From Streptomyces albofaciens JCM 4342 (GTDB taxonomy: Bacteria; Actinomycetota; Actinomycetes; Streptomycetales; Streptomycetaceae): 64,000 nucleotides of DNA. How positions within the stretch are numbered: the first letter of the stretch is position 1; every line of letters starts with the position of its first letter. Below, one piece after another: positions 15,552 through 57,549 of the stretch. Made by a program: the position numbers and the translations under genes. The stretch lies in NCBI RefSeq assembly GCF_008634025.1, contig NZ_PDCM01000001.1:4434501-4498500 (forward strand). Direction: 5' to 3'. The notes beneath the pieces are model-generated. The model searched no databases. It was not told the DNA's origin and saw only the letters and a list, made by a program, of their open reading frames with translations.

Positions 15552-15553
15552 CG

Positions 15554-16288: not shown

Positions 16289-16298
16289 CGCGCCGCGC

Positions 16299-16664: not shown

Positions 16665-16736
16665 GGAGGTGTTCGCGTCCTTTCCGGTGTCCGCCCGGTT
16701 CTCCCGGGTGCTCCCGGCTCTTACCGGCAGCGGTGT

Positions 16737-17411: not shown

Positions 17412-17460
17412 CGTCCGCTCCCCTCCGTTCGGGTGGGTACCTCTGTCACATGAACAGGGC

Positions 17461-34801: not shown

Positions 34802-36064
34802 ATGGACCGGAGCTATGTCGTGCCCTGGGGCAAGCGGGGCAGCATCTTGGCCGAGGCCGAGGTGTCCGTACTGAGGGAACTCATCCACGAGGACACGCCG
34901 CTGTCGATGGGCGGCCGGCGGGAACGTTTCGAGCGCTCCTTCGCCGAGACGGTCGGCAGCACGCACGCGATCTCCGTGACCAGCGGAACGGTCGCCCTGG
35001 AGCTGGCCATCCGCATGCTCGACCTGGAGCCCGGCGACGAGGTCATCGCCACCCCGCAGACCTATCAGGCGACCGTGCAGCCGCTGCTCGACTACGACGT
35101 ACGGGTCCGGTTCTGCGACATCGACCCGGACACCCTCAACATCGACGCGTCCGCCGTCGAAGCGCTGGTCACCCCGCGCACCAAGGCCCTGCTGCTGGTG
35201 CACTACGGCGGCTGCCCGGCCGAGATGGACGCCATCATGGCGCTGGCCCGACGGCACGGCTTCCTCGTCCTGGAGGACTGCGCGCACGCGCTGGGGGCCC
35301 GTTACCGGGGACGGGCCCCCGGGGCCCTGGCCGACATCGCCACCTTCAGCTTCCAGAACGCCAAGAACATCACCACCCTCGGCGAGGGCGGCATGGTCAC
35401 CTGCGACCGGGACGACTGGGCCGTACGGCTGGACCGGCTGCGCTCCAACGACATCGACGCCGAGATCGTCCGGTCCGACCTGAGCGACACGGTCGAGCCG
35501 ATCGTCCTGCCGTGGATGAAGTACGCCACGCCCGTCTACAGCGACTCCGTACGGCGGCTGCGCCGGGCCGGGACGAACGCGACGATGTCGGAGGCCGCCG
35601 CGGCCGTCGGGCAGGTCCAGCTCGGCCGGCTGGCGGCCACCGGCGCCACCCGGCGCGCGATCGCCGCCCGGCTGGACGAGGTGATCTCCCGCTACCCGTT
35701 CGTGCGGGCCCAGTCGGCGCCCGCGCACAGCGTGCACGCCCACCACCTCTACACCTGCTTCGCCGACCGCCAGGAACTGCGCGACCAGCTCGTACTGGGT
35801 CTCGACCGCAGGGGAGTCGAGATCCAGCTGCGCTACTTCCCGCAGCACCTGCTGCCCGAGTGGCGCCACCGCGGCCACCTGCGCGGCGAGTGCCCGGTCG
35901 CCGAACGCCTGTGGTTCGACCAGCACCTCAACCTGCCCTGCCACCCCCGGCTCACGCCCTCCCAGGTGGACTACCTCGTCGACGCCCTGGACGAGTCGCT
36001 GGCCGAGCTGAACGGCGGCGCCGCGGCCCCGCTGGCGTCGGCCACGGCGCACCTCGGCCGGTAG
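34802..36064 (+). CDS. DegT/DnrJ-type aminotransferase, probable L-lysine 2-aminotransferase (NikC/VisA-like)
   Basis: A 420-residue PLP enzyme of the DegT/DnrJ/EryC1/StrS fold. The PLP lysine is Lys188 in SFQNAKNITTLGEGGM, with EDCAHALGARYRG before it. The start SYVVPWGKRGSI and the core TPQTYQATVQPLLDYDVRVRF resemble the lysine 2-aminotransferases of nikkomycin and virginiamycin S biosynthesis more than sugar aminotransferases. The predicted reaction removes the alpha-amino group of lysine; the keto acid cyclises to piperideine-2-carboxylate, the substrate of the NikD-like oxidase in this cluster. It is the first gene of the operon. Confidence 0.85.
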   Translation: MDRSYVVPWGKRGSILAEAEVSVLRELIHEDTPLSMGGRRERFERSFAETVGSTHAISVTSGTVALELAIRMLDLEPGDEVIATPQTYQATVQPLLDYDVRVRFCDIDPDTLNIDASAVEALVTPRTKALLLVHYGGCPAEMDAIMALARRHGFLVLEDCAHALGARYRGRAPGALADIATFSFQNAKNITTLGEGGMVTCDRDDWAVRLDRLRSNDIDAEIVRSDLSDTVEPIVLPWMKYATPVYSDSVRRLRRAGTNATMSEAAAAVGQVQLGRLAATGATRRAIAARLDEVISRYPFVRAQSAPAHSVHAHHLYTCFADRQELRDQLVLGLDRRGVEIQLRYFPQHLLPEWRHRGHLRGECPVAERLWFDQHLNLPCHPRLTPSQVDYLVDALDESLAELNGGAAAPLASATAHLGR

Positions 36065-36096
36065 CGGCGGGGAGCGCGAGGGGGAAAGGACGACCG

Positions 36097-37173
36097 ATGC
36101 CCTGGGAAGAGGGACTGCCGGCCGGGCCGCCGCCCGGGCCCGCCGCCGGGCCGGCGGGCGACGACGTGCGCACCCACCTGCCGGCGCCGCCCCCGGCCCG
36201 GCGCGAGCCGGTGACCGTACGTATCAGCGCGCTGGACCTGTCGGGCTCGCCGCGGCTCGCGGGCTGCGACGTGGCGCACGTACGGGCCCTCGCCGAGGCG
36301 GACCCGGCCGGGCTGCCGCCGATCTTCGTGCACCGCGCCACGATGCGGGTGCTCGACGGCGCCCACCGGGTCCGGGCGGTGATCCTGCGCGGCGGGTCCG
36401 AGATCAGCGCGGAGCTCTTCCGGGGCACGGAACAGGAGGGGTTCGTGCACGCCGTACGGGCCAACGCCGCGCACGGGCTGCCGCTGACCACGGCGGACCG
36501 CAAGGCCGCGGCCCGGCGCATCCTGCGGGACTTCCCCTACTGCTCGGACCGGTCGCTGGCGGAGGTCGCCGGGCTGTCCGCGAAGACCATCGCCGGGCTG
36601 CGCCGGCGTTCGAGCGCGGACGGTCCGCGGTTGAACACCGCGCGGCTCGGGCGGGACGGCCGGGTGCGCCCGGCCAGTACGGCCGAAGGACGGCTGCGCG
36701 CCGGGCGGATCCTCCGCGAGAACCCCACGGCGCCCTTGCGGGAGGTCGCGCGGCGGGCCGGAATCTCCCTGGGTACCGCGCAGGACGTCAGCCGGCGCCT
36801 GCGCAACGGCCGGGACCTGCTGCCCGTACAGCAGGGCGAGGCCGCCGCGGCCGTCCGGCGGATCGAGGTGCACAGCCGCACCGCCGACGCCGTGGCGGAA
36901 CCCGGTGGCGCCCGCCGCCGCGGCGCCCCGGGCGAAGTCCCCCTGGAGCGGCTGCCGTTCCTGCGGCAGGACGTCGCGCTGCGGTCCACGAACACCGGCC
37001 GGGCCCTGCTGCGGCTGCTGATCGCCCAGGAAGCCGTGCTCGCCGACGGCGACCGGCTGGCCGCCGAGGTTCCGCCGCACTGCCTCCCGGCGCTGGCGGA
37101 GACGGCCCGTGCCTGCGGGCGGCTGTGGGCGGAGTTCGCCGAGAGCCTGGCCCGCCGCGAACCGGCGGAGTGA
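36097..37173 (+). CDS. StrR/NovG-type ParB-fold pathway regulator
   Basis: A 358-residue DNA-binding protein. The ParB-like N-terminal domain (about 35-125) reads VRISALDLSGSPRLAG, then LPPIFVHRATMRVLDGAHRVRAV and AVRANAAHGLPLTTADR; helix-turn-helix segments follow (FPYCSDRSLAEVAGLSAKTI and PLREVARRAGISLGTAQDV). This is the arrangement of StrR and NovG, activators specific to antibiotic clusters. ATG at 36097 follows GGGGGAAAGGA, 32 bp after the aminotransferase stop. It most likely activates this cluster. Confidence 0.87.
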   Translation: MPWEEGLPAGPPPGPAAGPAGDDVRTHLPAPPPARREPVTVRISALDLSGSPRLAGCDVAHVRALAEADPAGLPPIFVHRATMRVLDGAHRVRAVILRGGSEISAELFRGTEQEGFVHAVRANAAHGLPLTTADRKAAARRILRDFPYCSDRSLAEVAGLSAKTIAGLRRRSSADGPRLNTARLGRDGRVRPASTAEGRLRAGRILRENPTAPLREVARRAGISLGTAQDVSRRLRNGRDLLPVQQGEAAAAVRRIEVHSRTADAVAEPGGARRRGAPGEVPLERLPFLRQDVALRSTNTGRALLRLLIAQEAVLADGDRLAAEVPPHCLPALAETARACGRLWAEFAESLARREPAE

Positions 37174-37287
37174 CGGGGCGGTACGGCGCGGGAGCGGCGT
37201 ACGGCGTGGAACCGGGGCGCCGGCCGTGCGGAGGAACCTGCCCGGCGGCGCGCCCCAAGGAAATCGAAGGCAGCGAAGGAGTCGGTT

Positions 37288-37527
37288 GTGTCCATGAACG
37301 AGGTCCTGCGGGCCCTGTCGGACATAGGGCTGGACGCGGCCCTGCTCGACGAGGCGGGCCCGGACGTCAGGCTGCGCGCCGAACTGGGGCTGGACTCCGT
37401 CGAGACGACGGACCTCCAGCTGGAACTGAAGAAGCGGTTCGGTGTGGAGATCGACCTGTGGGACCAGGAGGACTACACGCTCGGCCAGCTGGCCGACCGC
37501 ATCGCCCCCGCCGGGAGCCCGTCATGA
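37288..37527 (+). CDS. Discrete acyl/aryl carrier protein
   Basis: A 79-residue carrier protein with the phosphopantetheine site LGLDSVETTDLQLELKKRF (Ser37). GTG at 37288 is best placed after AAGGAG; an ATG two codons later is possible. Its stop overlaps the ATG of the AMP ligase (ATGA), so the pair is co-translated, which fits loading of the activated acid onto this protein. The carrier would hold a picolinyl thioester for the PKS. Confidence 0.9.
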   Translation: MSMNEVLRALSDIGLDAALLDEAGPDVRLRAELGLDSVETTDLQLELKKRFGVEIDLWDQEDYTLGQLADRIAPAGSPS

Positions 37528-39251
37528 CCGTGACCGGCCGAACGGCCCCCGCCGCCCCCACCGCCCGCGCCCCGCTCGACCCGATGGTCCCCGCCATCGA
37601 TCCCGGACGCGCCGCCCGCTACCGGGCCGCGGGCGTGTGGACGGACGAACTCGTCGGCGCCCGCATCGCCGAACGTTGCCGCACCGCCCCGGACCGCTGC
37701 GCCGTGGTCGACGGCGAGCGCCGGACGACGTACGGGGAACTCGGCCACGCCGTACGGGCCGCCGCCGGACGGCTGCGCGGGCTCGGCATCGGCCCCGGCG
37801 ACCGGGTGGGCGTGCAGCTGTCCAACAGCACCGAATACGTCGTGCTGGTGCTCGCCCTGCTGGAGATCGGCGCCCCGCCGGTCCTCGTCCTCCCGGCGTT
37901 CCGCGCCCACGAACTCGACCACATCGTCTCCGTCACCCGCCCGGTCGCGCTGGCCGTCGAACGCGGCACCCGCAGGTCCGACGCGCTCGCCACCGCCCGC
38001 GGCCTCGCCGCCCGGCACCCGGGCCTGCGCCACCTGCTGGTCCGCGGCGCGGACCCGGGCGACGCCGACGGCACATGGGTGGATCTCACCGAGCTGTGCC
38101 GCCCGGAGCCCGGCGCGAGCGGCCCGGTGCCGCCCCCGCCCGAGGCGCCCGGCGCCGCGCCCCACGACGCCGCCGTCTTCCTGCTCTCCAGCGGCACCAC
38201 CGGCCTTCCCAAGGCCATCGCCCGCACCCACGAGGGCTACGGCTACATGATCCGGACGGCGACCGTCCTCGCCGGGGTCACCGAGCGCACCGTCAACCTC
38301 GTCGTGATGCCCGCCGAACACGGCTTCGTCATGAACTGCCCCGGCCTGCTGGGCACCCTGTCCGCGGGCGGCACGGCCGTCCTGACCACGCCCGCCAGCC
38401 CCCGGCGCGCCCTGGAGCTGATCGAACGCGAGCGGGTCACCCACAGCACCCTGGTGCCGACACTGGCCCTCCAGTGGATCGCCGCGGCCCGCGAGCGGAC
38501 GTACGACCTGTCGAGCCTGGAGGTGATCCAGGTGGGCGGCGCCCGGCCGTCCGCCGACATGGCCGCCGGGCTGCGCGAGGTCCTGGGCGCCACGGTCCAG
38601 CAGTGCTACGGCATGAGCGAGGGCCTGCTCTGCTACACCCGCCTGGACGATCCCGTGGCGACGGCCGACGGCACCCAGGGCGCCCCCGCGTCCCCCCTCG
38701 ACGAGGTCCGGGTCGTGGACGCGGACGGCGCCGAAGTGGCGGCCGGGGAGATGGGGGAGCTGCTGACCCGCGGCCCGTACACCGTCGCCGGCTATTACCG
38801 CAACGCCGACGCCACGGCCTCCTCCTTCACCGCCGACGGCTTCTACCGCACCGGCGACCTGGTCCGCCTCGACGCGCGGGGCAACGTCCTGGTCGAGGGC
38901 CGGGTGCGGGACGTCATCAACCGCGGCGGCGAGAAGATCTCCGCCGAGGAACTGGAACAGATCGCCCGGCAGCACCCGGGCATCGCCGACGCGGCAGGCG
39001 TCGCCATGCCGCATCCGCTGTACGGCGAGGCGGTGTGCCTCTACGCGGTGCCCGCCGCCGGTGCGGCAGCGGCGGGGGAGGACCTGGACCTGCGCGCGGT
39101 ACGGCGGTTCCTGGAGGACCGCGGACTGGCCCGCTACAAGTTCCCCGAACGGCTGGAAATCGTGGCCGCGCTGCCGCTGACCGGCATCGGAAAGATCGAC
39201 AAGGCCGCGCTGCGCGAGGACATCGCCGCCCGGCTCGCCGCCGGGACCTGA
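37524..39251 (+). CDS. Aryl-acid AMP ligase (VisB/SnbA/DhbE-like), predicted picolinate-activating
   Basis: A 575-residue adenylate-forming enzyme. Signature motifs: FLLSSGTTGLPKAIARTH (P-loop), QQCYGMSEGLLCYT, FYRTGDLVRLDARGNVLVEGRVRDVINRGGEKIS, and the C-terminal lysine motif PLTGIGKIDKAALR. The acid-pocket segment MPAEHGFVMNCPGLLG aligns with the DhbE segment in which His-Asn and a nearby Ser read an aryl acid; here His is kept and Asn is Gly, as might suit a pyridine acid. It would form picolinyl-AMP and pass it to the carrier protein encoded just upstream. Confidence 0.88.
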   Translation: MTVTGRTAPAAPTARAPLDPMVPAIDPGRAARYRAAGVWTDELVGARIAERCRTAPDRCAVVDGERRTTYGELGHAVRAAAGRLRGLGIGPGDRVGVQLSNSTEYVVLVLALLEIGAPPVLVLPAFRAHELDHIVSVTRPVALAVERGTRRSDALATARGLAARHPGLRHLLVRGADPGDADGTWVDLTELCRPEPGASGPVPPPPEAPGAAPHDAAVFLLSSGTTGLPKAIARTHEGYGYMIRTATVLAGVTERTVNLVVMPAEHGFVMNCPGLLGTLSAGGTAVLTTPASPRRALELIERERVTHSTLVPTLALQWIAAARERTYDLSSLEVIQVGGARPSADMAAGLREVLGATVQQCYGMSEGLLCYTRLDDPVATADGTQGAPASPLDEVRVVDADGAEVAAGEMGELLTRGPYTVAGYYRNADATASSFTADGFYRTGDLVRLDARGNVLVEGRVRDVINRGGEKISAEELEQIARQHPGIADAAGVAMPHPLYGEAVCLYAVPAAGAAAAGEDLDLRAVRRFLEDRGLARYKFPERLEIVAALPLTGIGKIDKAALREDIAARLAAGT

Positions 39252-39314
39252 CTCCCGGACCGGGTCGCCGGTCCGGTACGCCCCCACCCCACCACCGCAA
39301 GGAGCACGCACGCG

Positions 39315-40082
39315 ATGAGCGACACGGCCCGCTCCGCCTGGGTCAAGCGCCTCCCCGGCGCCGAGCCCGCCGGCCACCACCTGGTCTGCTTCCCGCACGC
39401 GGGCGGCGGCGCCGCCTTCTTCCGGCCGTGGCGGGAGACGCTGCCGCCCGCCACCGAACTGCTGGTGGTCCAGTACCCCGGCCGCGAGGACCGGCTCCAG
39501 GAGCCCTTCGCCGAGACCGTGGAGGAGGTCGTGGAGGGCGTCTCCGCGCAGCTGACCGCCGAACTCGGCGGCGGCCCGGTCACCTTCTTCGGGCACAGCA
39601 TGGGCGCCCTGGTCGCCTACGAAGTGGCCCGCCACTGGGAGCGGCTGGGCCTGCCCGGACCGGACCGGCTGGTCGTCTCCGGCCAGTACGCGCCCGGCGA
39701 ACTGCCGCCCCAGGACGTCCACGAACGGGACGACGACGGGGTCCTGGAGGTGGTGGAGCGGCTCGGCGGCGCCGTCTCCGACGTCCGCCGCAGCCCCGAA
39801 CTCAAGGCGTTCGTCGCCGCGTCGACGCGCGCCGACTACCGGATGCTGGACGGCTACGCGCCCTTCGACGGCGAACCCGTCGCCGCCGCGCTGACCGCCC
39901 TGTGCGGGCGCGACGACCCGGCGGTCTCCCCGGAGGACGTCGCCCGCTGGCGCGACTTCACCACCGGCCCCTTCGAGCAGCTGCACTTCCCCGGCGGTCA
40001 CTTCTACCTCCGGGACGGCCGGCAGGCCGTGATCTCCGCGCTCGTCGGAGCGCTTCCGCATGCCACCGGGCAGTACACCTAA
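39315..40082 (+). CDS. Type II thioesterase
   Basis: A 255-residue alpha/beta hydrolase with the nucleophile Ser95 in FFGHSMGALVAYEVA and a C-terminal catalytic His in FPGGHFYLRDG. The opening LVCFPHAGGGAAFFRPW is the hallmark of editing thioesterases associated with PKS and NRPS. It would clear stalled acyl chains from the carrier domains; because the PKS has no release domain it might also unload the product. ATG follows CAAGGAG. Confidence 0.92.
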   Translation: MSDTARSAWVKRLPGAEPAGHHLVCFPHAGGGAAFFRPWRETLPPATELLVVQYPGREDRLQEPFAETVEEVVEGVSAQLTAELGGGPVTFFGHSMGALVAYEVARHWERLGLPGPDRLVVSGQYAPGELPPQDVHERDDDGVLEVVERLGGAVSDVRRSPELKAFVAASTRADYRMLDGYAPFDGEPVAAALTALCGRDDPAVSPEDVARWRDFTTGPFEQLHFPGGHFYLRDGRQAVISALVGALPHATGQYT

Positions 40083-40094
40083 GGAGCTGTGTCC

Positions 40095-41309
40095 ATGAGC
40101 GGCATCGAGACCTATGACCTGATCGTCGTCGGCGGCGGGCCGGTCGGCCTGTCCACCGCCTGGCACGCGGCCCGGCGCGGCGGGCACCGGGTCCTCGTAC
40201 TGGACCAATACGGCTTCATGAACGAGCGCGCCGGATCGAGCGGCGCCGAACGCCACTGGCGGGTGCAGTACACCCAGAAGGACATCTTCGCGCTGACGTT
40301 GCAGACCCGCCCGATGTGGGCGGAGCTGGAGCGGCTGACCGGCCGCAGACTGATCCACGAGCTGGGCAGCCTGTGGTTCGGCGACACCGGGGTGGAGACC
40401 AACGAGGGGCACATCGCGGACACCGCGCGGGCCATGGACGAGATGTCCGTGGCGTACGAGTGGCTGACCGCCCGGGACATCGAGAAGCGCTACGGCTTCA
40501 CCGGGCTGCCCGGCCACTTCGAGGGGTTCCTCCAGCGCGACGGCGGCGCCATCGACGTACGGGGCACCCTCGCCGCGCTGTTCCAGCTCTCCCAGGAGCA
40601 CGGCGCGGTGCTGCGCGGCAACGAGGCCGTACGGGAGACCACGCCGGACCGCGACGGGGTGACGGTCCGCACCGACCGGGCCGCCTACCGGGCCGCCAAG
40701 GTCGTCCTCGCCAACGGCTCGCAGGCCAACGACCTCATCACCCCCTGGGGCGGCGGCGGGCTGGACCTGCACGCGTACGAGATGGCGCTGGTCACCCTGC
40801 GGCAGCGGGACGCCTCCGTACCGCGGCCGTTCTGGTTCGCCTTCCAGAAGCCCACCGAGGAGGACACCAACCTCTTCTACGGCTTCCCGCCCAACCCCTG
40901 GTCCACCTCCGACGAGGTGCGCCTCGGCCCCGACTTCGAGGTCAACGCCCTGGAGCACGCGAGCCGGGCCACCGGCGTCCCGGACCCGCGGCACGTCGAG
41001 CGGGTCACCGACTGGGTCCGCGCGCACATGCCGTGGGTGGACCCGGAGCCCACCGGCACCTCCACCTGCCTGGCCGTGCTGCCCGGCGACCCGGCGCGGC
41101 AGTTCTACCTGGGCACGGCCGCGGGCCTGGTGGACGGCGGCGAGAACGTGGTCGTCTCGGTCGCCGGCTGGGCGTTCAAGCTCGTCCCGCTCTTCGGCCG
41201 GATCTGCGCGGAACTCGCCCTGGACGGCGGCACGTCGTACGACATCGCCCGGCACGCGCTGACCGGCCCGGCGGTGCCCGCACGGCCCGCGCCCGGAGCC
41301 GCCCGATGA
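40095..41309 (+). CDS. NikD-like flavin oxidase (piperideine-2-carboxylate to picolinate)
   Basis: A 404-residue member of the monomeric sarcosine oxidase family. The FAD motif VVGGGPVGLSTAWHAARRG is at the N-terminus and Cys325 in TSTCLAVLPGD is the expected covalent FAD attachment. The stretches SGAERHWRVQYTQKDIF, LGSLWFGDTGVETNEGHI, DGGAIDVRGTLAALF and SVAGWAFKLVPLFGRICA follow nikkomycin NikD, which oxidises piperideine-2-carboxylate to picolinate. ATG at 40095 fits AAGGAG better than the GTG at 40089. The stop overlaps the PKS start (ATGA). Confidence 0.9.
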   Translation: MSGIETYDLIVVGGGPVGLSTAWHAARRGGHRVLVLDQYGFMNERAGSSGAERHWRVQYTQKDIFALTLQTRPMWAELERLTGRRLIHELGSLWFGDTGVETNEGHIADTARAMDEMSVAYEWLTARDIEKRYGFTGLPGHFEGFLQRDGGAIDVRGTLAALFQLSQEHGAVLRGNEAVRETTPDRDGVTVRTDRAAYRAAKVVLANGSQANDLITPWGGGGLDLHAYEMALVTLRQRDASVPRPFWFAFQKPTEEDTNLFYGFPPNPWSTSDEVRLGPDFEVNALEHASRATGVPDPRHVERVTDWVRAHMPWVDPEPTGTSTCLAVLPGDPARQFYLGTAAGLVDGGENVVVSVAGWAFKLVPLFGRICAELALDGGTSYDIARHALTGPAVPARPAPGAAR

Positions 41310-44260
41310 CGCCCGCCGCCCGGGACGTCGCGGTCATCGGCATGGCGGGGCGCTTCCCCGGCGCCCCGGACCTCGACGCGTTCTGGGCCAATCTGCGCGA
41401 CGGCGTGGAGTCGATCACCGCGCTGAGCGAGGACGAGCTGTCGGCCGAGGGCATCGAGCGGGAGCTGTTCGAGCGGGACGACTACGTCCGCGTCGCCTCG
41501 CTCCTGGACGGCCACGACCTGTTCGACGCCCGGTTCTTCGGCTTCAGCGCGCGCGAGGCCGCCCTGCTCGACCCGCAGCAGCGGCTCTTCCTGGAGTGCT
41601 CCTGGCACGCCCTGGAGGACGCCGCCCTGGATCCGGCGTCGGTCCGCCGCGGCGGGATCTTCGCGGGGGCCAACATGCCCGCGTACTGGATGTCGAACCT
41701 GCTGGGCGGCCGGCGCGTCGTGCTCGACGCGGACGTGTTCGAGCAGCAGATCCACAACGACAAGGACTACCTCGCCACCCGCACCGCGCACCGCCTCGGC
41801 TTCACCGGGCCCGCGGTCAGCGTGCAGACCGCCTGCTCGACCTCGCTGGTCGCGGTGCACGAGGGCATCAAGGCGCTGCTCGTGGACGAGTGCGACGTGG
41901 TGCTCGCCGGCGGGGTCTGCGTCCGGGTGCCGCAGCGCGCGGGCTACCTCGCCGAGCGCGGCATGGTGCACTCCCCGGACGGCCACTGCCGCCCCTTCGA
42001 CGCGCGCGGCGCGGGCACCGTCTTCGGCAACGGCGTCGGCGTGGTCGTCCTCAAGCGGCTCGCCGACGCGCTGACCGACGGCGACCGGGTCCTGGCCGTC
42101 GTCAAGGGATCCGCCGTCAACAACGACGGTACGGACAAGGTCGGCTTCACCGCGCCCGGGGTCGCCGGGCAGGAGCGGGTGGTCCGCGAGGCGCTGCGGA
42201 CCGCGGGTGTGCCCGCGCGCAGCGTCACGGCCGTCGAGGCGCACGGCACGGCCACCCCGATCGGCGACCCGATCGAGATCAAGGCGCTCACCCGGGCGTT
42301 CCGGGACTCCACCGACGAGAGCGGCTTCTGCTCCGTCGGGTCGGTCAAGGGCAACATCGGGCACCTGGAGTCGGCGGCGGGCATCGCCGGGTTCATCAAG
42401 GCGGTCCTCCAACTGCGCCACCGGCAGCTCGCGCCCACGGTGCACTTCGCGGAGCCCAACCCGCGGATCGACTTCGCGGCGACGCCGTTCCGGGTCGACG
42501 CGGCGCTGCGGGAGTGGGATGCGGCGGAGTTCCCGCGCCGCATCGGGGTCAGCGCCTTCGGCATCGGCGGGACCAACGCACACGTGATCCTGGAAGAGGC
42601 GCCGCGCTCCACGGCCGTCGCCGACGGGGCCGCGGCCGACGCGCCGCAACTGCTCGTACTGTCGGCGAAGAGCCCCGAGGCGCTGGACGCGGCGACGCGA
42701 CGGCTGACCGCCCGGCTCGCCGAGCCCGGCGCCCCGGATCTCGCGGACGCGGCGTACACGCTGCAAACCGGCCGGTCACCGATGCGGCACCGGCGCACCC
42801 TCCTCCGCGCGGGGAGCGGGCCGTACGCCGAACACACGGGGGAGAGCGGCACCGGACGGCTCAGGACGGTGTTCCTGTTCCCCGGCCAGGGCGCCCAGTA
42901 TCCGGGCATGGGCCGCGAACTGCACGCAGCGGAGCCGGTCTTCGCCGAGCACCTCGATCACTGCGCCGAGGTGCTGCGCGACGAACTGGGCTTCGACGTC
43001 AGGGGGTTGCTGCTGGACCTGGACGCCCCGGCGGAGCGGCTGACGGCGACCGAGGTGGCGCAGCCCGCGCTGTTCACCGTCGAGTACGCGCTCGCCCGGC
43101 TGCTGGCCTCCTGGGGCATCGCGCCGGACGGCATGGTGGGCCACAGCCTCGGGGAGTACGTCGCCGCCTGCCTCGCGGGCGTGTTCACCGTGGAGGAGGC
43201 GCTGCGGCTGGTGGCGCTGCGCGGCCGGCTGATGGCCGCGCGCCCGGCCGGGGCGATGCTGTCGGTGCAGGCCCCGGAGGAGCGGCTGCGCGAACTGCTC
43301 GTGGACGGCGTCGGCATCGCGGCCGTCAACGCGCCCGAACTGTGCGTGGCCTCGGGCCCCGCCCCGCTCGTCGCCGAACTGGCCGGACGCCTCGCCGCCG
43401 CGGGCATGTCCGCCCGGCCGCTGCACACCTCGCACGCCTTCCACTCGCCGATGATGGAACCGGCCGTCGCGCCGTTCACCGAGGCCGTACGGACCGCGCG
43501 CCCGGCGGCGCCACGGCTGCCCTTCGCCTCCGGCGTCACGGGCGCCGCCATCACGGCGGAGCAGGCCACCGACCCCGCCTACTGGGGCGAACACATCCGC
43601 CGCCCCGTACGGTTCGCCGACGCGCTGCGCACCGCCCTGCCCGCGGGCCGCTGCGCCCTGGTCGAGGTCGGGCCGGGCACCACCCTGTCCTCGCTGGCCA
43701 GAGCGGCGCTCGGGGCGCGGAAGGGACTCACCGTCACCCGTACGATGCCACGGCCCACGGAGGCGGAGAGCGAACGGGTCACCCTGCTCTCCGGCGTCGG
43801 CGACCTGTGGCTCGCGGGCGCCGGGGTGGACTGGCGCGCGCTGCACCGGGTCCCGCGGCGGCGGGTCGCGCTGCCGGGGTACCCGTTCGCCCGTGAGCGG
43901 TACTGGATCGAGCCGCGCGGCGGCGGACAGCGGGCGCGGGGGAGCGGTGCGGAGGAGCGGCCCCCCGCGCGGCCGCAGGGGCAGGCGCGGACCGCCCGGC
44001 CCGGCGGCCTGCGGACGGCGTACGCGGCCCCGGACAGCGAGACGGAGAAGCAAGTCGTCGCGCTCTGGGAGGAGTTCCTGGAGTACGAACCCGTCGGCGT
44101 GCACGACGACTTCTTCGAACTCGGCGGGCACTCGCTGCTCGCCACCCGTATCGCCAACCGCCTGGCCGAGGTGCTGCGGACGCAGGTGTCCGTCCGCGAT
44201 GTGCTCGCGCACGCCACGCCGGCGCGGCTGGCGGCCGAGCTGGACGGGCGGGAAGGCTGA
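41306..44260 (+). CDS. Single-module polyketide synthase KS-AT-ACP
   Basis: A 984-residue type I PKS. The ketosynthase (about 8-430) has active-site Cys177 (VQTACSTSLVAVH) and both histidines (EAHGTATPIGDP and KGNIGHLESAAG). The acyltransferase (about 510-810) has Ser614 in GHSLGEYVAA and the HAFHS motif that predicts malonyl-CoA. The carrier domain (about 910-975) has Ser943 in FFELGGHSLLATRI. There is no KR, DH, ER or TE, so it would give an unreduced beta-keto thioester, once or iteratively. It is coupled to the NikD-like gene and followed by a 16-bp terminator. Confidence 0.95.
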   Translation: MTPAARDVAVIGMAGRFPGAPDLDAFWANLRDGVESITALSEDELSAEGIERELFERDDYVRVASLLDGHDLFDARFFGFSAREAALLDPQQRLFLECSWHALEDAALDPASVRRGGIFAGANMPAYWMSNLLGGRRVVLDADVFEQQIHNDKDYLATRTAHRLGFTGPAVSVQTACSTSLVAVHEGIKALLVDECDVVLAGGVCVRVPQRAGYLAERGMVHSPDGHCRPFDARGAGTVFGNGVGVVVLKRLADALTDGDRVLAVVKGSAVNNDGTDKVGFTAPGVAGQERVVREALRTAGVPARSVTAVEAHGTATPIGDPIEIKALTRAFRDSTDESGFCSVGSVKGNIGHLESAAGIAGFIKAVLQLRHRQLAPTVHFAEPNPRIDFAATPFRVDAALREWDAAEFPRRIGVSAFGIGGTNAHVILEEAPRSTAVADGAAADAPQLLVLSAKSPEALDAATRRLTARLAEPGAPDLADAAYTLQTGRSPMRHRRTLLRAGSGPYAEHTGESGTGRLRTVFLFPGQGAQYPGMGRELHAAEPVFAEHLDHCAEVLRDELGFDVRGLLLDLDAPAERLTATEVAQPALFTVEYALARLLASWGIAPDGMVGHSLGEYVAACLAGVFTVEEALRLVALRGRLMAARPAGAMLSVQAPEERLRELLVDGVGIAAVNAPELCVASGPAPLVAELAGRLAAAGMSARPLHTSHAFHSPMMEPAVAPFTEAVRTARPAAPRLPFASGVTGAAITAEQATDPAYWGEHIRRPVRFADALRTALPAGRCALVEVGPGTTLSSLARAALGARKGLTVTRTMPRPTEAESERVTLLSGVGDLWLAGAGVDWRALHRVPRRRVALPGYPFARERYWIEPRGGGQRARGSGAEERPPARPQGQARTARPGGLRTAYAAPDSETEKQVVALWEEFLEYEPVGVHDDFFELGGHSLLATRIANRLAEVLRTQVSVRDVLAHATPARLAAELDGREG

Positions 44261-44266
44261 CCGGAC

Positions 44267-44307
44267 CCCGGCGGGCGGCGGCGATGTCGGTGCCGCCGCC
44301 CGCCGGG
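44267..44307. terminator. Strong hairpin between PKS and CGNR genes
   Basis: CCCGGCGGGCGGCGGC (44267-44282) pairs perfectly with GCCGCCGCCCGCCGGG (44292-44307) around a 9-nt loop, between two convergent stops. It marks the end of the biosynthetic operon. Confidence 0.8.
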
Positions 44308-44311
44308 ATTC

Positions 44312-44833
44312 TCAGGCCGCGCGCTTGGCGCGGTGGCGGCGTACCGCGTCGCGGTTGGCGCAGGCGTGCGAGCAGTACCGCTGCCGCCCGGCGCGGGTGA
44401 AGTCCGCGTAGGCGTTGGGGCATTCGGCCAGCGCGCAGCGGCCCAGCCGGTGCATGCCCAGACCGGTCAGGTGCAGCGCGGTGCCGACGCTGGCCACCGC
44501 CCGCAGGATGCCCGCGGCCCCGAGGCCGTCCTCGCGGTAGTGGATGTGCCAGCCGCCGTCGGCGTGGTCGGTGAGCCGGGGGTGGGTGGACGCGTCGGCG
44601 AGCAGCGTGTTGAGGAGGGCGGCGCGCCGCTCGTCCGTGGGGGCGTCGACGACCTCGGCCCACCGGGCGAGGAAGTCCAGTGCCTCGGCGAGGTCGTCGT
44701 CCGTCGCCGGCCGGTCGAGCACCATGCCCGCCGCCTCGCAGCGTTCGGCCAGCTCGGAGGCGCTGGCGGGCGGGGAGTTGGCAAGGTCGGTCACGAAGCG
44801 GACGGGGTCCTCCCCGTAAGGGTTCAGCTGCAT
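44312..44833 (-). CDS. CGNR zinc-finger transcriptional regulator
   Basis: A 173-residue protein with an N-terminal ABATE-type helical domain and a C-terminal CGNR zinc finger: CALAECPNAYADFTRAGRQ, then YCSHACANRDAVRRHR, with Cys pairs and the CANR variant of CGNR. ATG at 44833 leaves only 25 bp to the divergent MFS gene, so the two share a control region and this protein probably regulates the exporter. Confidence 0.87.
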   Translation of the reverse strand: MQLNPYGEDPVRFVTDLANSPPASASELAERCEAAGMVLDRPATDDDLAEALDFLARWAEVVDAPTDERRAALLNTLLADASTHPRLTDHADGGWHIHYREDGLGAAGILRAVASVGTALHLTGLGMHRLGRCALAECPNAYADFTRAGRQRYCSHACANRDAVRRHRAKRAA

Positions 44834-44858
44834 AAGACCATTACAGCAGAGTGATCCC

Positions 44859-46346
44859 ATGGACTCACCACTGGCCGACGGGCGCCCCGTTGCCGTCGGA
44901 GAAGCACCCCCGGCGCCCACGCCCGCACAGACCTCCGCGGCTCCCCGCTCCACCCCCGGCACCTGGCTCCCCCTGGTCGCCACCTGCCTGGGCACCTTCA
45001 TGCTCCTCGTCTACGCGACGATCGTGACGGTGGCGCTGCCGCAGATGGCGCGAGATCTGCACGCGGGCTTCGGATCGCTCCAGTGGATCATCGACGTCTA
45101 CACCCTCGCCCTCGCCGGCCTGCTGCTCGGCATGGGCTCCCTCGGCGACAACCTGGGACGCAAGCGCCTGTACGTCATCGGGCTGACCGTCTTCACCGCC
45201 GCCACCCTCGCCTGCGGCCTGGCCCCGGACGTCGGGGTGCTCATCGCCGCCCGCGCGGTCCAGGGCGTCGCGGGCGCCGCCATGTTCGCCACGCTGCTGC
45301 CGCTGATCGGCCTCACCTACACCGGACGCGACCGGGCCACGGCGTTCGCCGTCTGGGGCGCGGTCGCCGGCGCGGCGGCCGGCATCGGCAATGTCGCGGG
45401 CGGCATGCTCACCCAGTTCCTGTCCTGGCAGTGGATCTTCTACGGTGCCGTGCCGGTCTGCGCCGCCACCATCGCCCTGTCCGTGAAGGTGCTGGCCGAC
45501 GACACCAGCCGGCCCACCCGCGTCGACTGGGCGGGGATCGTGACCTTCACCCTGGCCGCGATCGGCGTCACCTTCGGCTTCATCCGCGGCGGCGAGGCGG
45601 GCTGGACGGACCCCACCACCCTGCTCGGCTTCGCCGTCGGCGCCGTCCTGCTCGTCGTCTTCGTCCTGGTGGAGCGGGCCGTCACCCACCCGATGCTGCC
45701 GCTGGAACTGTTCCGCAAGCCCGCCTTCGACGGCATGCTCCTCGCCGCCTGCGGCTACTACCTGGCCGCGTTCGGCTTCCTGCCCGTGCTCTCCCTCTGG
45801 CTCCAGAACGGCGTGGGACTCAGCTCCTTCGCCACCTCCCTGGTCATCACCGTCCAGCCGGCCGCCTTCTTCGCCACCTCCGCCCTGGTCGGCAGCGCCC
45901 TGCACCGCATCCCCGCCCGCTGGACCCTCGGCGGCGGCTCCGTGGTGGTCGGCCTGGGCAACCTCGCACTGCTGACGGTGGGGCCCGGCTCGTCCTGGCC
46001 GGCGCTGCTGCCCGGACTGGTGATCACCGGGGTCGGCGCGGGACTCGTCTCGCCGGTCCTGCCGGCCGTCGCCATGTCCGCCGCGCCCGCCGCGCACAGC
46101 GGCGTCGCCGCCGCGGCCGCCAACAGCGCCCGCCAGCTCGGCCTCGCCCTGGGCATCGCCCTGCTGGGCACCGTCTTCCACCAGTACGTGCCGGACGGCG
46201 GCCCGGCCTCGGGCACGGCGTACGCCCACGGACTGGACGCCGTTTTCCTCCTCGCGGGCGTCATCACCCTGGCCGCCGGAATCGCGGCGATGTGGCTCCT
46301 CGGATTCCGGGGGCGAACCCACAAGGAGGTCCCGGGAACGGCGTGA
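44859..46346 (+). CDS. DHA2-type MFS exporter (14 TM)
   Basis: A 495-residue drug:H+ antiporter of the EmrB/QacA type with about fourteen hydrophobic segments. The DHA2 loop GDNLGRKRLYVIGL and the motif C-like AAARAVQGVAGAAMF are visible. It is divergent from the CGNR regulator and adjacent to the PKS operon, so it probably exports the cluster product and gives self-protection. Confidence 0.9.
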   Translation: MDSPLADGRPVAVGEAPPAPTPAQTSAAPRSTPGTWLPLVATCLGTFMLLVYATIVTVALPQMARDLHAGFGSLQWIIDVYTLALAGLLLGMGSLGDNLGRKRLYVIGLTVFTAATLACGLAPDVGVLIAARAVQGVAGAAMFATLLPLIGLTYTGRDRATAFAVWGAVAGAAAGIGNVAGGMLTQFLSWQWIFYGAVPVCAATIALSVKVLADDTSRPTRVDWAGIVTFTLAAIGVTFGFIRGGEAGWTDPTTLLGFAVGAVLLVVFVLVERAVTHPMLPLELFRKPAFDGMLLAACGYYLAAFGFLPVLSLWLQNGVGLSSFATSLVITVQPAAFFATSALVGSALHRIPARWTLGGGSVVVGLGNLALLTVGPGSSWPALLPGLVITGVGAGLVSPVLPAVAMSAAPAAHSGVAAAAANSARQLGLALGIALLGTVFHQYVPDGGPASGTAYAHGLDAVFLLAGVITLAAGIAAMWLLGFRGRTHKEVPGTA

Positions 46347-46667
46347 ACGATCGGCCGAATTCCCGCTTCGCGTATTCTCGTCCGACTTCGAACGGTTGAC
46401 AGTGGTAAGGGGGCGGCACAGCATTTGCGATGGATCCGCCGATCTCTTTTCCCGGGTGGCGTCCAGTATTCTCCTTCCCGATGTCCGGGCGCTGTTCGGG
46501 CCGGTCGGCGGAGCTGTCGTACGCATGTGTCCGGCGTGCGGACGAGCGTTGCGGGTAATTCCGAGGAACCACGTTCGGAGAATCCCGGTGCTCCGGACTC
46601 CGGCTGAATACCGGCCGCCCGGCCGAAATGCGTGCCCGACCGAACCGACCCGTGAAACGAGGGAGAT
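46347..46667. other. 321-bp intergenic region inside the cluster
   Basis: Noticeably less GC-rich than its surroundings. A perfect TTGACA lies at 46396-46401 but no convincing -10 was found at 17-18 bp. No gene was recognised. The promoter of the barrel-protein/MFS pair should be here. Confidence 0.5.
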
Positions 46668-47192
46668 ATGACCCCGACCCCCAGTCCGCTGCCGGTCCCC
46701 GGCATTCCCGCGATGTGCCCGCGGTGCCTGGCCGCGCTCGACGGCCCGCTGCCGGACGTCGGGCAGACCGAGGGCGGTACGGGCTGCGTCGTACGGACCG
46801 GGCTCGCCGAGCACGCGGACATCACCTTCCACGCCGCCACCGCGACGGGGCCCACGGTCGGCGACCGGAACACCCACGTGGACCGCCTCACCGACGCCGC
46901 CGGAACCACCGTCGGCACCATCACCGGCGGCGGCTGGAAGGTGTTCGAGCACCCCCGGGACGGCCATGTGCTGTCCTACTACCGCGAGGAGATCGAGTTC
47001 CTGGACGGCACGGTCGTCACCACCGGCTGGATGGACTCCACCGCCGTATGGTCCGGCCAGTGGCAGAGCCTGCACGCGGTCGGCACCGGCGGCGCCTACC
47101 GCGGCCTGATCGGCGTGCGGCAGATCCGCCAGGAGGAGCCCCGCCGGCTGTTCCGCGCCAACGTCGTCCTGTGCGCCACCGGCGGCCGGTGA
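46668..47192 (+). CDS. Small AOC/dirigent-like beta-barrel protein, candidate cyclase
   Basis: A 174-residue protein, all beta-strand-like. The segments VGDRNTHVDRLTDAAGTTVGTITGGGWKVF, EIEFLDGTVVTTGWMDST and HAVGTGGAYRGLIGVRQIRQEE follow the allene-oxide-cyclase/dirigent barrel pattern, with the typical GTGxYxG turn. Some actinobacterial barrels of this size act as pericyclases or cyclases in polyketide pathways, so a ring-forming role is possible. The N-terminus carries a CPRC motif of unknown use. The fold is inferred from sequence pattern only. It is 10 bp before the second MFS gene. Confidence 0.6.
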   Translation: MTPTPSPLPVPGIPAMCPRCLAALDGPLPDVGQTEGGTGCVVRTGLAEHADITFHAATATGPTVGDRNTHVDRLTDAAGTTVGTITGGGWKVFEHPRDGHVLSYYREEIEFLDGTVVTTGWMDSTAVWSGQWQSLHAVGTGGAYRGLIGVRQIRQEEPRRLFRANVVLCATGGR

Positions 47193-47202
47193 AAGGAGCC
47201 CG

Positions 47203-48507
47203 GTGTCTTCCCTCGGACGTGCCCGGTGGGGCATCGGCGCGCTTCTGGCGGGCGGTCTGCTCGTCAACTTCGCGGACCGTACGGTGCTGTCCGTCGCGGC
47301 GCCGCAGCTCGCCGACGAGTTCGGGTGGAGCCTGAGCCAGTTGGGCGTCGTCCTCGCGGCGTTCAGCTGGTCGTACGGGCTGGTGCAGCTGCCGGCCGGC
47401 GCGCTGGTGGACCGGATCGGCGTCAAGTGGCTCAACCGCGTCGCGGTGACGCTGTGGGGCGTGGCCAGCCTGCTGCTCGCGGTCGCCGGGGGCCTCGGCC
47501 TGATCCTCGTCTCACGGCTGCTGCTGGGCGTCGCCGAGGGGCCCTTCATGCTCAGCGCCGCGAAGGCCACCGCCACCTGGTTCCCCACCGCCGAACGCGG
47601 GCGCGCCACCGCCCTCTTCGACGGGGCCACGAAACTGGCCAACGTCATCGGGCTGCCGGTGCTCGCCCTCGTGGTCGGCACCTGGGGCTGGCGGGCCGGG
47701 TTCCAGTTCACCGGCGTGCTCAGCCTGCTGTTCGCCGCGGTGTGGTGGTGGCGCTACCGGGACCCGGCCGAACACCCCCGGCTGGGCGCCGCCGAGCGCG
47801 CGCACCTGGCGGCCGGCGGCGCGCGCGTCGCCGACCGGCCGCGCGGCTCCGTCCTGCGCCCGGTGCTGCGCTCCGGCCGGATGTGGACGATGGCGCTCGG
47901 CTTCGCCTGCTACGGCTATGCCATCAACGTCGTCCTGACCTGGATGCCGGAGTTCTTCCAGCGGCAGTTCGGCACCCGCACCCTGGGCTCCGGCCTCTAC
48001 TCGGCGGTCCCCTGGATCGTGGCCACCGTCGCCGAACTCGCCCTCGGCGGCTGGCTGGCCGACCGCCTCGTACGGGCCGGACGCGACCCGATGAAGGTCC
48101 GCAGGACCGTGCTGACCTGCGGCCTCGCGGTGGGCGCGACCGTCGGCTTCGCGGGTACGGCGCCCAGCGTCCCGGCCGCGGTGGGCTGGATGGCGCTCTC
48201 CCTCGGCGGGCTCGCGGTCGCCGCGCCGGCGGCCTGGAGCCTGCCCGGCCTGCTGGCGCCGCCCGGCGCGGTGGGCGCGGCCGGCGGGCTGATGAACTTC
48301 GCCAACGCCGCCGCCACCACGGCGGGCGTGGTGTTGACCGGCTGGCTGGCGGAGGTGACCGGGTCGTTCGGCGCGCCCTTCGTGTTCGCCGCCGCCGTCC
48401 TGGGCGCCGGGATCCTCCTGTACCGGCGGCTGCTCGTGCCGCGCCCCGGGCGGACGACGCCCGCGGCCACGCCCCGCACGGAAGGGGATGAGGCCCTGGC
48501 CCTATAG
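47203..48507 (+). CDS. MFS transporter (12 TM)
   Basis: A 434-residue MFS protein with about twelve hydrophobic segments, MFS loop GALVDRIGVKWLNRV, and sequence features of the anion:cation symporter group (LLLGVAEGPFMLSAAKATATWF). GTG start follows GAAAGGAG. It is co-transcribed with the barrel protein. It may import a precursor or export the product; direction cannot be read. Confidence 0.87.
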   Translation: MSSLGRARWGIGALLAGGLLVNFADRTVLSVAAPQLADEFGWSLSQLGVVLAAFSWSYGLVQLPAGALVDRIGVKWLNRVAVTLWGVASLLLAVAGGLGLILVSRLLLGVAEGPFMLSAAKATATWFPTAERGRATALFDGATKLANVIGLPVLALVVGTWGWRAGFQFTGVLSLLFAAVWWWRYRDPAEHPRLGAAERAHLAAGGARVADRPRGSVLRPVLRSGRMWTMALGFACYGYAINVVLTWMPEFFQRQFGTRTLGSGLYSAVPWIVATVAELALGGWLADRLVRAGRDPMKVRRTVLTCGLAVGATVGFAGTAPSVPAAVGWMALSLGGLAVAAPAAWSLPGLLAPPGAVGAAGGLMNFANAAATTAGVVLTGWLAEVTGSFGAPFVFAAAVLGAGILLYRRLLVPRPGRTTPAATPRTEGDEALAL

Positions 48508-48733: not shown

Positions 48734-50041
48734 GTGAGCGACTCCATAACGTTGTCCGCCTGCCTGAAAAGGCTGTCCTGGTCCCCGGACCGGCTCGCCC
48801 GTGAGATCAACCGGGTGTGCGGCGGGGGCACGATCAGCGACAAGGCTCCCTACAATTGGCTCAAAGGCTCCCTGCCGCGGCGGCAACTTCCCGAAATCGT
48901 GGCGAGAATTCTGACCGAAAAGCTCGGGGAGCCGGTCACGGTCCGTGATCTCTGGCCGGACAGGTTCCCGGCTCCGGTGGCCGAAAAGGCTCCTGTTCCA
49001 CGGCAGCGTCCGGCCGGCCCGGACCCGGCCCCGCTGCCCGCGCAGGACATGGTCGCCACCGCCGTGGACTGGCTCGTGGGCAGCGACCCGCCCCTGACCT
49101 GCCGGCTGCGCGGCGAGGAGGTCGACCCCGGCATCCTGACGGTGCTGGAGGACCGCAGTGACCAACTGCGCCGGCTCGCCGACGAGCGCGCCGGGGAACT
49201 GGTCATGGACTGGGCCGTGCAGGAGCTGCGGTGGACCCGCAAGCTCATCGCCGAGTGCAGCTACGGCCGCGCGACCGGGCTGCGGCTGCACCGCACCGCC
49301 GCCGAACTCGCCCAGGTCGTCGGCTGGATGGCCGCCGACCTCGACATGGCGGGCCAGAGCGAACGCCACCTCCTGGCCGCGCTGCGCTCCGCCCGGATCG
49401 CCGGGGACCGCGCGCTGGCCGCGTACGTCATCTCCTGCCTGAGCTACCGGTTCGCCTGGAGCGGCCAGGGCCGGGAGGCGCTGCGGCTGATCCAGATCGC
49501 CCGCAAGGGCACCCAGGACCACGCCCCCGGGCCCGGGCAGGCACTGCTGGCGAGCCGGCAGGCCAGGGCGCACGCCGCGCTGGGGGACGCCGTGGGCTGC
49601 CGGCGGGCCCTGGACGAGGCGCAGGAACTGATCGAGACCGGCGGCGAGTCCGGTACGGCGCCCTGGGCGTCGTGGGTGACCCCCGCCGTGCTGGTCGCCG
49701 ACGCGGGCCGGTCCTGGTTGGATGTGGGCAGGTCCGCATGGGCGGAACGCCATCTGGTGCGCGGGCTGGAGCTGTTCGGCCAGAGCCAGCCGCTGAACCG
49801 GCTGCTGCACTGGACCTCACTGGCCGAGGCCCGGCTGGCGCACGGTGACGTGGACGGCGCCGCGACCGCGACCTGGGAGGCCCTGGGGCTCTACGAGCGG
49901 GTCACCTCGCACCGCGCCCGCGTCCGGCTGACCCGGCTGCGCGGCCGTTTCACGCGCTGCGACGCGCGGGTGGCCCGGCAGGTCGCGCAGGGCACGGCGG
50001 AGGTGCTCGACGAGGCGCGCCGACTGGCCTCCTGCGGCTGA
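48734..50041 (+). CDS. HTH-TPR regulator (NsdA-like)
   Basis: A 435-residue cytosolic protein. An N-terminal DNA-binding-like domain (LSACLKRLSWSPDRLAREIN, ISDKAPYNWLKGSLPRRQLPE, VTVRDLWPDRF) is followed by helical TPR-like repeats (for example ALGDAVGCRRALDEAQELIETGG). This is the layout of NsdA-type Streptomyces regulators of secondary metabolism. GTG at 48734 follows GACGAGG. It closes the biosynthetic region and may control it. Confidence 0.78.
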   Translation: MSDSITLSACLKRLSWSPDRLAREINRVCGGGTISDKAPYNWLKGSLPRRQLPEIVARILTEKLGEPVTVRDLWPDRFPAPVAEKAPVPRQRPAGPDPAPLPAQDMVATAVDWLVGSDPPLTCRLRGEEVDPGILTVLEDRSDQLRRLADERAGELVMDWAVQELRWTRKLIAECSYGRATGLRLHRTAAELAQVVGWMAADLDMAGQSERHLLAALRSARIAGDRALAAYVISCLSYRFAWSGQGREALRLIQIARKGTQDHAPGPGQALLASRQARAHAALGDAVGCRRALDEAQELIETGGESGTAPWASWVTPAVLVADAGRSWLDVGRSAWAERHLVRGLELFGQSQPLNRLLHWTSLAEARLAHGDVDGAATATWEALGLYERVTSHRARVRLTRLRGRFTRCDARVARQVAQGTAEVLDEARRLASCG

Positions 50042-50192
50042 GCGCGGTGCACGGCGGGAGCCGTTGCCGTACGGTTCCGGCCGCGGCCCCGCCGGGACGC
50101 GGCCGGTGACGCGGCGGCGCGTCCCGCCCACCGGACCTCCGTGCCGCCCCGGCCGACCGGGACCGGGCAGTTGCGTCTGGAGGAGAGACATC

Positions 50193-53342: not shown

Positions 53343-53355
53343 AGCAGGACTATGG

Positions 53356-53374
53356 AAAGGCTGGCCTAACTTGG
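53356..53374. promoter_or_regulatory. Iron-box-like site between the divergent siderophore-uptake genes
   Basis: The 19 bp AAAGGCTGGCCTAACTTGG match the DmdR/IdeR consensus TTAGGTTAGGCTAACCTAA at 11 of 19 positions, with the core CTAAC intact. It lies 14 bp from permease A and 57 bp from the binding-protein gene. It is degenerate, so the assignment is tentative. Confidence 0.5.
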
Positions 53375-53431
53375 CAAGGCCGTCCATGATCCTCAAGGGA
53401 AATGGTGCGAACCGACGAGAGAGGATCAGCC

Positions 53432-57529: not shown

Positions 57530-57549
57530 ATCCGTACTCCCGCCTCGTT

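Follow-up and report, generated by a model that had tools for sequence, protein, structure and literature searches.

The window analysed here is a 64,000-nucleotide stretch of Streptomyces albofaciens JCM 4342 (contig NZ_PDCM01000001.1, positions 4,434,501 to 4,498,500). It contains a small biosynthetic cluster whose core consists of nine genes (34802-46346), with a single-module polyketide synthase (PKS) preceded by genes that could supply and activate a picolinate starter unit. Genes were listed with a codon-bias gene caller and by Pfam and NCBIfam searches of the window proteins, and they are collected in Table 1 together with features of a second locus, situated elsewhere in this genome on contig C2, which may encode the later steps of the same pathway. 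Every gene named in an earlier note on this DNA was found with the domains claimed for it, at agreeing coordinates, and the ATGA couplings described at the carrier/ligase and oxidase/PKS junctions are both overlaps of 4 bp. The regulator that had been called StrR-type is present as well. Pfam gives HTH_24 alone for this protein, and we take its N-terminus to be StrR/ParB-like. As had also been stated, no hydroxylase is seen across 34802-48507, though a cytochrome P450 sits in the second locus. Among the named relatives found, S. rimosus NRRL WC-3904 is the nearest (96% for the oxidase).

Table 1. Features of the window and of the second locus. Positions refer to the window unless a contig is given. 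ACP, acyl carrier protein; AT, acyltransferase; KS, ketosynthase; MFS, major facilitator superfamily; PLP, pyridoxal phosphate; SAT, serine O-acetyltransferase; DHB, dihydroxybenzoate; TPR, tetratricopeptide repeat.
Feature	Position	Strand	Supporting observations
DegT-family aminotransferase, putative L-lysine 2-aminotransferase (NikC/VisA/CaeP1 role)	34802..36064	+	PF01041 2.7e-93; SFQNAK PLP-lysine motif
StrR/ParB-like pathway regulator	36211..37173	+	HTH_24
Discrete aryl carrier protein (ACP)	37288..37527	+	PF00550; -4 bp overlap with ligase
Picolinate-type aryl-AMP ligase	37524..39251	+	DHB-AMP-ligase-like, 498 bits, under equivalog cut-off 723
Type II thioesterase	39315..40082	+	PF00975 3e-47; GHSMG
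NikD-like flavin oxidase (DAO), putative piperideine-2-carboxylate to picolinate	40089..41309	+	NikD 2oln, 535.7 bits
PKS module KS-AT(malonyl-type)-ACP	41306..44260	+	Pfam/NCBIfam domains and motifs
CGNR zinc-finger regulator	44312..44833	-	PF11706; found in 5/5 clusters compared
DHA2-type MFS exporter	45000..46346	+	efflux_EmrB 163 bits, under cut-off 230
Site of RosC-like and SAT genes in S. caatingaensis, S. ferralitis and G190; none here	46347..46712	.	
AOC-barrel protein (AbmU/AbyU-like), membership uncertain	46713..47192	+	PF18678; AbmU 95 bits
Second MFS transporter	47284..48507	+	Syntenic in ferralitis and G190 clusters
NsdA-family TPR regulator, probable pathway-associated gene	49049..50041	+	NF053720 205.7 bits, over cut-off 75
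MurB-like flavoprotein	50193..51296	+	Syntenic in G190
FecCD-type iron-chelate permease	51196..52194	-	Syntenic in G190, and in L010 to end of that locus
FecCD-type iron-chelate permease	52257..53228	-	Syntenic in G190
Peripla_BP_2 substrate-binding protein	53627..54433	+	Syntenic in G190, 51%
Second locus	G000:C2:1,294,635-1,302,439		SAT, RosC-like PALP, AsnB-type amidotransferase, P450, MFS, regulator
RosC-like PALP	C2:1295379-1296410		SAT gene adjoins

The lysine-derived picolinate suggested earlier is backed by the NikD similarity of the oxidase and by the DegT aminotransferase beside it. The oxidase falls with NikD and not with sarcosine enzymes, the top sarcosine oxidase scoring only 87.9 bits, and it keeps in alignment all five of the residues Glu101, Tyr258, Asp276, Cys321 and Trp355, which we take to be the active-site residues of NikD. 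The aminotransferase is 49-55% identical to aminotransferases adjoining NikD homologues in five genomes, whose loci appear from their gene content to be nikkomycin-like (G180, G192), caerulomycin-like (G367) or of a type that joins 3-hydroxypicolinate to a nonribosomal peptide synthetase (NRPS; G370, G278). Its top PDB matches are mostly perosamine and other sugar-type enzymes, and no lysine aminotransferase is named among the 60 PDB molecules listed.

Activation of this starter is likewise consistent with the sequence of the ligase, which resembles picolinate-type ligases, as had been proposed: it is 54% identical to P0310, an Actinoalloteichus protein that fits CaeA1, and 56% identical to the ligase of the nikkomycin-like locus in G180. 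At the acyl pocket the window protein has HG, as do CaeA1-type and nikkomycin-like ligases; HG is found in 18 of 19 rows aligned (three of the HG rows lie outside the named groups, and the nineteenth row, G278_23, belongs to an NRPS A domain and cannot be aligned at this place). The salicylate and DHB ligases from PDB have HN at this place in all five of the sequences printed, out of 13 matched. In DhbE the Asn of the pocket contacts the 2-hydroxyl group, and a pocket without it therefore fits an acid that has no 2-hydroxyl. The similarity to NikD and the ligase pocket thus support picolinate priming.

The PKS is 984 amino acids long and terminates right after its ACP, with no reductive, release or fused NRPS domain. 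Domain matches and motifs (KS Cys-His-His; AT GHSLGE...HAFH; ACP GGHSL) confirm the single non-reducing KS-AT-ACP module that had been described. The HAFH motif, which we assume to mark malonyl-type AT domains, suggests a malonyl extender.

The same nine genes occur in the same order in S. rimosus (locus L009), S. caatingaensis (L010), Streptantibioticus ferralitis (L011) and G190 (probably S. albospinus), which is more than would be expected by chance. Automatic gene calls had missed two of these genes in G190 (regulator and ACP) and one in L011 (regulator), and all three were recovered by further inspection. In the latter three relatives, whose loci extend further, the exporter is followed by a RosC-like PLP enzyme of the PALP fold and by a hexapeptide acetyltransferase (SAT). 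In a database search the S. caatingaensis enzyme is 51% identical to RosC of Erwinia rhapontici, and the tail of the same list, at 31-41%, includes many proteins with names such as cysteine synthase A; the RosC-like enzymes of the relatives and of C2 are 49-51% identical to the Erwinia protein. Proferrorosamine is a ferrous chelator built from picolinate and one malonyl unit, after which RosC joins O-acetylserine and the ring closes spontaneously, according to the available part of PMC11481915. Because RosC-like and SAT genes stand beside picolinate and PKS genes in the relatives, these clusters fit proferrorosamine-type logic. Although the earlier note had found no family that it could name, the cluster can be named as proferrorosamine-type through these genes of its relatives. 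The pyrone or free beta-keto acid expected there becomes a less likely end point, given that the relatives carry RosC-like and SAT genes downstream.

The RosC-like and SAT genes are gone from the window, where positions 46271/46657 align to 16045/18010 of the S. caatingaensis locus. No remnant of PALP or SAT was found in 46201-46900 by tblastn with PALP, SAT, AsnB, P450 and MFS queries (best E 0.084). The AOC-barrel protein downstream, a relative of the AbmU/AbyU cyclases that adjoins the one-module PKS, occurs among the other clusters only in S. rimosus and S. caatingaensis, and no gene for it was found in the loci of ferralitis and G190.

The missing pair has counterparts on contig C2. The C2 PALP protein shares 49% identity with RosC of Erwinia rhapontici. 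A further 13 PALP matches occur in the window genome, with 27-37% identity to the S. caatingaensis enzyme. The SAT adjoining the C2 PALP scores above the threshold set for EpsC, a serine O-acetyltransferase model, and the two genes are surrounded by those for an AsnB-type amidotransferase, a P450, an MFS transporter and an AraC-type regulator. The C2 PALP, SAT, AsnB, P450 and MFS proteins are 92, 91, 85, 89 and 85% identical, respectively, to in-cluster proteins of S. albospinus, in which the P450, AsnB and MFS genes lie immediately upstream of DegT. A nucleotide alignment of C2 with the S. albospinus cluster spans the AraC-type regulator, MFS, P450, AsnB, regulator, PALP and SAT genes and is interrupted by two jumps. 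One of these (9667/10955) corresponds to DegT, called at 9735-10943, and the other (12082/21414) to the genes from the carrier protein to the exporter; both recur when C2 is aligned to the ferralitis locus. The StrR-like regulator of C2 is a second, divergent and open copy. Membership of the window locus in the proferrorosamine/siderochelin-type family is incomplete, since the RosC step and the O-acetylserine supply are not found at this locus and their candidates are on C2.

According to phylogenetic trees, the two halves come from different cluster lineages. In the PKS tree, S. caatingaensis and S. silvisoli form a group with the window and S. rimosus sequences (99/98), and the ligase tree gives the same grouping (98/93) in a set that includes A. 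bartoniae on a long branch. The C2 PALP gene groups instead with S. albospinus and S. ferralitis (100/99, in a set of seven). The regulator is present at both loci, and its window copy falls with S. caatingaensis and its C2 copy with G190 and ferralitis, the two being separated by a 100/100 branch. The simplest history would be that two homologous clusters resided in one ancestor and underwent complementary losses. A single ancestral cluster cut by rearrangement, with its front half later replaced through recombination, would also yield two loci and discordant trees. We consider this course of events unlikely, given that regulator copies of different lineages persist, one per locus, and that the gaps at both loci fall at gene borders within a retained frame.

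Both loci are also present in S. rimosus (G047), on contigs C41 and C76 of an independent assembly, and misassembly is therefore an unlikely source of the split. When the window genome is compared with S. rimosus, all 18 genes lack internal stops, and the ratio of nonsynonymous to synonymous substitution rates (dN/dS) is 0.10-0.29 in 16 of them (the carrier protein has 0.47 and the AOC-barrel protein 0.56). Both halves are under purifying selection. Among 392 genomes of the genus, eight have a NikD match at 1e-60 and ten a RosC match at 1e-70; RosC above 88% is found in three, which are the three NikD-positive genomes bearing this PKS locus. A search for RosC in 394 genomes of the family gave two matches at 1e-100, namely the window genome and one whose contig coordinates equal those of the ferralitis hit. 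In a plasmid collection, NikD matched six records (best 42.7%) and RosC four (best 43.5%).

We propose, with a probability of roughly 0.77, that a ros-like pathway of the proferrorosamine type has its front half encoded in the window and its back half on C2, the two having been split by complementary losses. The DegT aminotransferase, together with the NikD-like oxidase, would turn lysine into picolinate, which the ligase would load onto the discrete carrier protein. The KS-AT-ACP module would then add one malonyl-CoA-derived unit, and the thioesterase would release picolinoylacetate. With O-acetylserine supplied by the C2 SAT, the RosC-like enzyme could perform the joining reaction with loss of CO2, whereupon the chain would close to a 2-(2-pyridyl)-pyrroline carboxylate. 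The AsnB-type enzyme probably makes a carboxamide and the P450 probably hydroxylates, and an MFS transporter would also belong to this back half. The product is probably an amidated pyridyl-dihydropyrrole iron chelator of the proferrorosamine/siderochelin type, a reading that supports the chelating product anticipated from the window alone. Two homologous clusters of different lineages would once have shared a genome, each then losing genes that the other kept. The more specific proposal, to which we give a somewhat better than even chance, is that two homologous clusters of separate ancestry came together in the S. rimosus lineage and lost complementary gene sets, that one chelator is made jointly by two interdependent loci, and that it is a new picolinyl-dihydropyrrole carboxamide, possibly hydroxylated. 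The pathway could then be named, as that of a ros-type ferrous chelator in Streptomyces. Mining the window locus alone shows merely an odd PKS fragment, and the split would explain why. The two loci would represent an unusually legible case of co-resident clusters coming to share one pathway through complementary losses at gene borders.

Several known systems share parts of this gene set. NikC, NikD and NikE/SanJ act in the pyridyl sub-pathway of nikkomycin, where acyl-CoA reductase and aldolase genes adjoin NikC/D/E. Homologues of the aminotransferase, of NikD and of the picolinate ligase are shared with that sub-pathway, but picolinate would here go to a carrier and a PKS and not into an aldehyde/aldol branch, and no acyl-CoA reductase or aldolase genes of the nikkomycin type were found in 34802-48507. 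The ros system of Erwinia rhapontici, as described in the accessible portion of PMC11481915, has in common with our candidate the picolinate starter, a single malonyl extension by a type I PKS, and a RosC-like PLP enzyme used with O-acetylserine; the window itself has the picolinate genes, the picolinate-type ligase and the single-module type I PKS. Unlike ros, the window genome spreads its genes over two loci. Possible further differences are the AsnB and P450 genes and the StrR-like and CGNR regulators seen here.

The sid cluster of Amycolatopsis WAC04611 would be similar in its conversion of lysine to a pyridine carboxylate, its PKS extension, its O-acetylserine supply and RosC homologue, its carboxamide enzyme and its iron-transport genes (PMC11481915, in part). 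The AsnB-type enzyme of C2 is a candidate for the amide-forming step. However, sid uses 3-hydroxypicolinate, methylmalonyl and discrete KS, AT and ACP proteins, according to the same portion of that source, whereas the window PKS is a fused KS-AT-ACP with the HAFH motif of a malonyl-type AT. No 3-hydroxypicolinate hydroxylase of the SidJ type was seen among the window cluster genes or the six C2 genes scanned, the P450 aside; the remainder of the genome was not searched. Caerulomycin and collismycin clusters, in the available part of PMC8149447, likewise combine a lysine aminotransferase and an oxidase for picolinate with a ligase of the CaeA1 type and a malonyl KS-AT-ACP. The window module differs from CaeA2 of the same source in that it has no fused Cy-A-PCP-Ct and ends after its ACP. 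Among the literature matches listed, none indicates a Streptomyces producer of ferrorosamine, proferrorosamine or siderochelin, and no row naming such compounds was seen in the part of the S. rimosus ATCC 10970 table consulted (PMC13098539). The same source, in the portion available, reports Cas9 cluster deletion in S. rimosus, the oxytetracycline producer.

Downstream of the second MFS gene, the row of NsdA, MurB, FecCD and binding-protein genes (49049-54433) suits iron-chelate uptake. The order of these genes in G190 is identical, with an additional ABC (ATP-binding cassette) ATPase gene among them. Orthologues of the NsdA-type gene with 57-63% identity stand in L010, L011 and G190, whereas four of 20 other genomes gave matches no better than 32-35% and the rest gave none.

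Some observations weigh against the proposal of a ros-like pathway shared by the two loci. The co-occurrence of the RosC and NikD genes is statistically weak, as it involves few and partly sister genomes (two of the three are close relatives). In seven of the ten RosC-positive genomes of the genus, RosC reaches only 45-50% and NikD gives no match at 1e-60. Matches to NikD, the ligase and DegT at 1e-5 are absent in all four such RosC loci that were opened (G059 and G076, which belong to these seven, and G400 and G403 from another search). One of them, G076, shows a partial similarity to the KS (28% over 201 residues) at the border of the stretch opened. As RosC occurs without picolinate genes elsewhere, the C2 pair could serve another pathway. 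Beside the PLP lysine, KDRP is read in the RosC-like proteins of C2, G190 and L011, as against KDRT in the L010 protein and in RosC of Erwinia. KDRP is accompanied by SSAGASW (L035:1376-2410, L012:9394-10419 and L011:16537-17529), and KDRT in the Erwinia and L010 proteins by SSAANW. The KDRP-type enzymes may thus differ in reaction or substrate.

AsnB and P450 genes were not found in the L010 and L011 stretches (~10 kb on each side of the oxidase), nor did AsnB give a match at 1e-60 anywhere in the ferralitis genome. Tailoring is therefore not part of the core. FecCD permeases do not discriminate between genomes: matches at 1e-60 occur in 51 of 61, and in 8 of the 60 other genomes identity reaches 58-60%, so that the permeases are placed by synteny only. 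No ABC ATPase was found among the genes scanned beside them. A 19-mer pattern that we take to represent iron boxes of the DmdR/DtxR type has no match in the window with up to three mismatches.

Alternatively, the window cluster may be complete alone, with a module that acts once or iteratively and with release by the thioesterase or by spontaneous lactonisation, the C2 genes being unrelated. The product would then be a pyridyl beta-keto acid, 2-acetylpyridine or 4-hydroxy-6-(2-pyridyl)-2-pyrone. The locus has its own exporter, thioesterase and regulators, its module is non-reducing, it is under purifying selection, and it contains neither RosC nor SAT, while RosC-like genes serve other pathways in other genomes. 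We nevertheless judge a self-contained cluster to be quite unlikely, because RosC-like and SAT genes occupy the same position in all three longer relatives, and because close orthologues of them are kept in the window genome within the scar of a sister cluster.

With the ros-like pathway retained, its product could end as a hydroxamate and not as a carboxamide. The closest PDB entry to the C2 AsnB protein is 7ylz (594 bits, next match 168), which is TsnB9, the trichostatin hydroxyamidotransferase, according to the part of the source available. This outcome is nonetheless improbable. In that same part, TsnB9 requires glutamyl hydroxamate from TsnB6/TsnB7, and none of the six C2 genes scanned has the look of an AurF-type oxygenase. 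A P450 as the source of a hydroxamate has no support in the consulted portions of the literature. A hydroxamate cassette in which the C2 P450 stood in for TsnB6 is disfavoured, because the accessible text describes TsnB6 as a helper and TsnB7 as the AurF-like oxygenase. Since TsnB6/7 partners were not seen among the C2 genes scanned, a carboxamide is more likely, as in siderochelin A/B or as proposed, in the available part of the source, for the product of Dip5, the amidotransferase of dipyrimicin. Finally, that both halves are relics decaying separately and yielding no product, as might be suspected from the lack, at each locus, of genes present in the relatives, is the least probable of these alternatives in view of the 18 open genes and low dN/dS values, the identical architecture in two species, and database clusters of similar size for the ligase (P0246, 19 members) and RosC (P0131, 21 members).

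Some of the loci examined for comparison deserve mention in their own right. Four of them, L058 (G059), L059 (G076), L060 (G403) and L061 (G400), combine RosC-like (45-49%) and SAT-like genes in other neighbourhoods, and a joining step of the RosC type may thus operate in additional, so far unrecognised pathways. The caerulomycin/collismycin-like locus of G367 (L018/L019) contains a ligase and a 2079-amino-acid protein with 45% similarity to the window PKS over 942 residues, and L014-L017 (G180, G192) represent two loci that appear to be nikkomycin-like, all of these being from Streptomyces genomes.

Elsewhere in the window, a reverse-strand row (14964-19831) comprises genes for GTP cyclohydrolase I, a QueE-like radical SAM (S-adenosylmethionine) enzyme, PTPS/QueD, QueC, a threonine-aldolase-like lyase and an ATP-grasp amino-acid ligase. 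With an MFS gene beside it (13629-14858), it looks like a 7-deazapurine (preQ0) natural-product cluster. Positions 8936-11599 encode an 887-amino-acid protein with a prokaryotic RING finger (Prok-RING_4). At 55910-58749, a von Willebrand A protein adjoins a bpMoxR AAA ATPase, an arrangement resembling a portion of a MoxR-vWA-beta-propeller ternary system.

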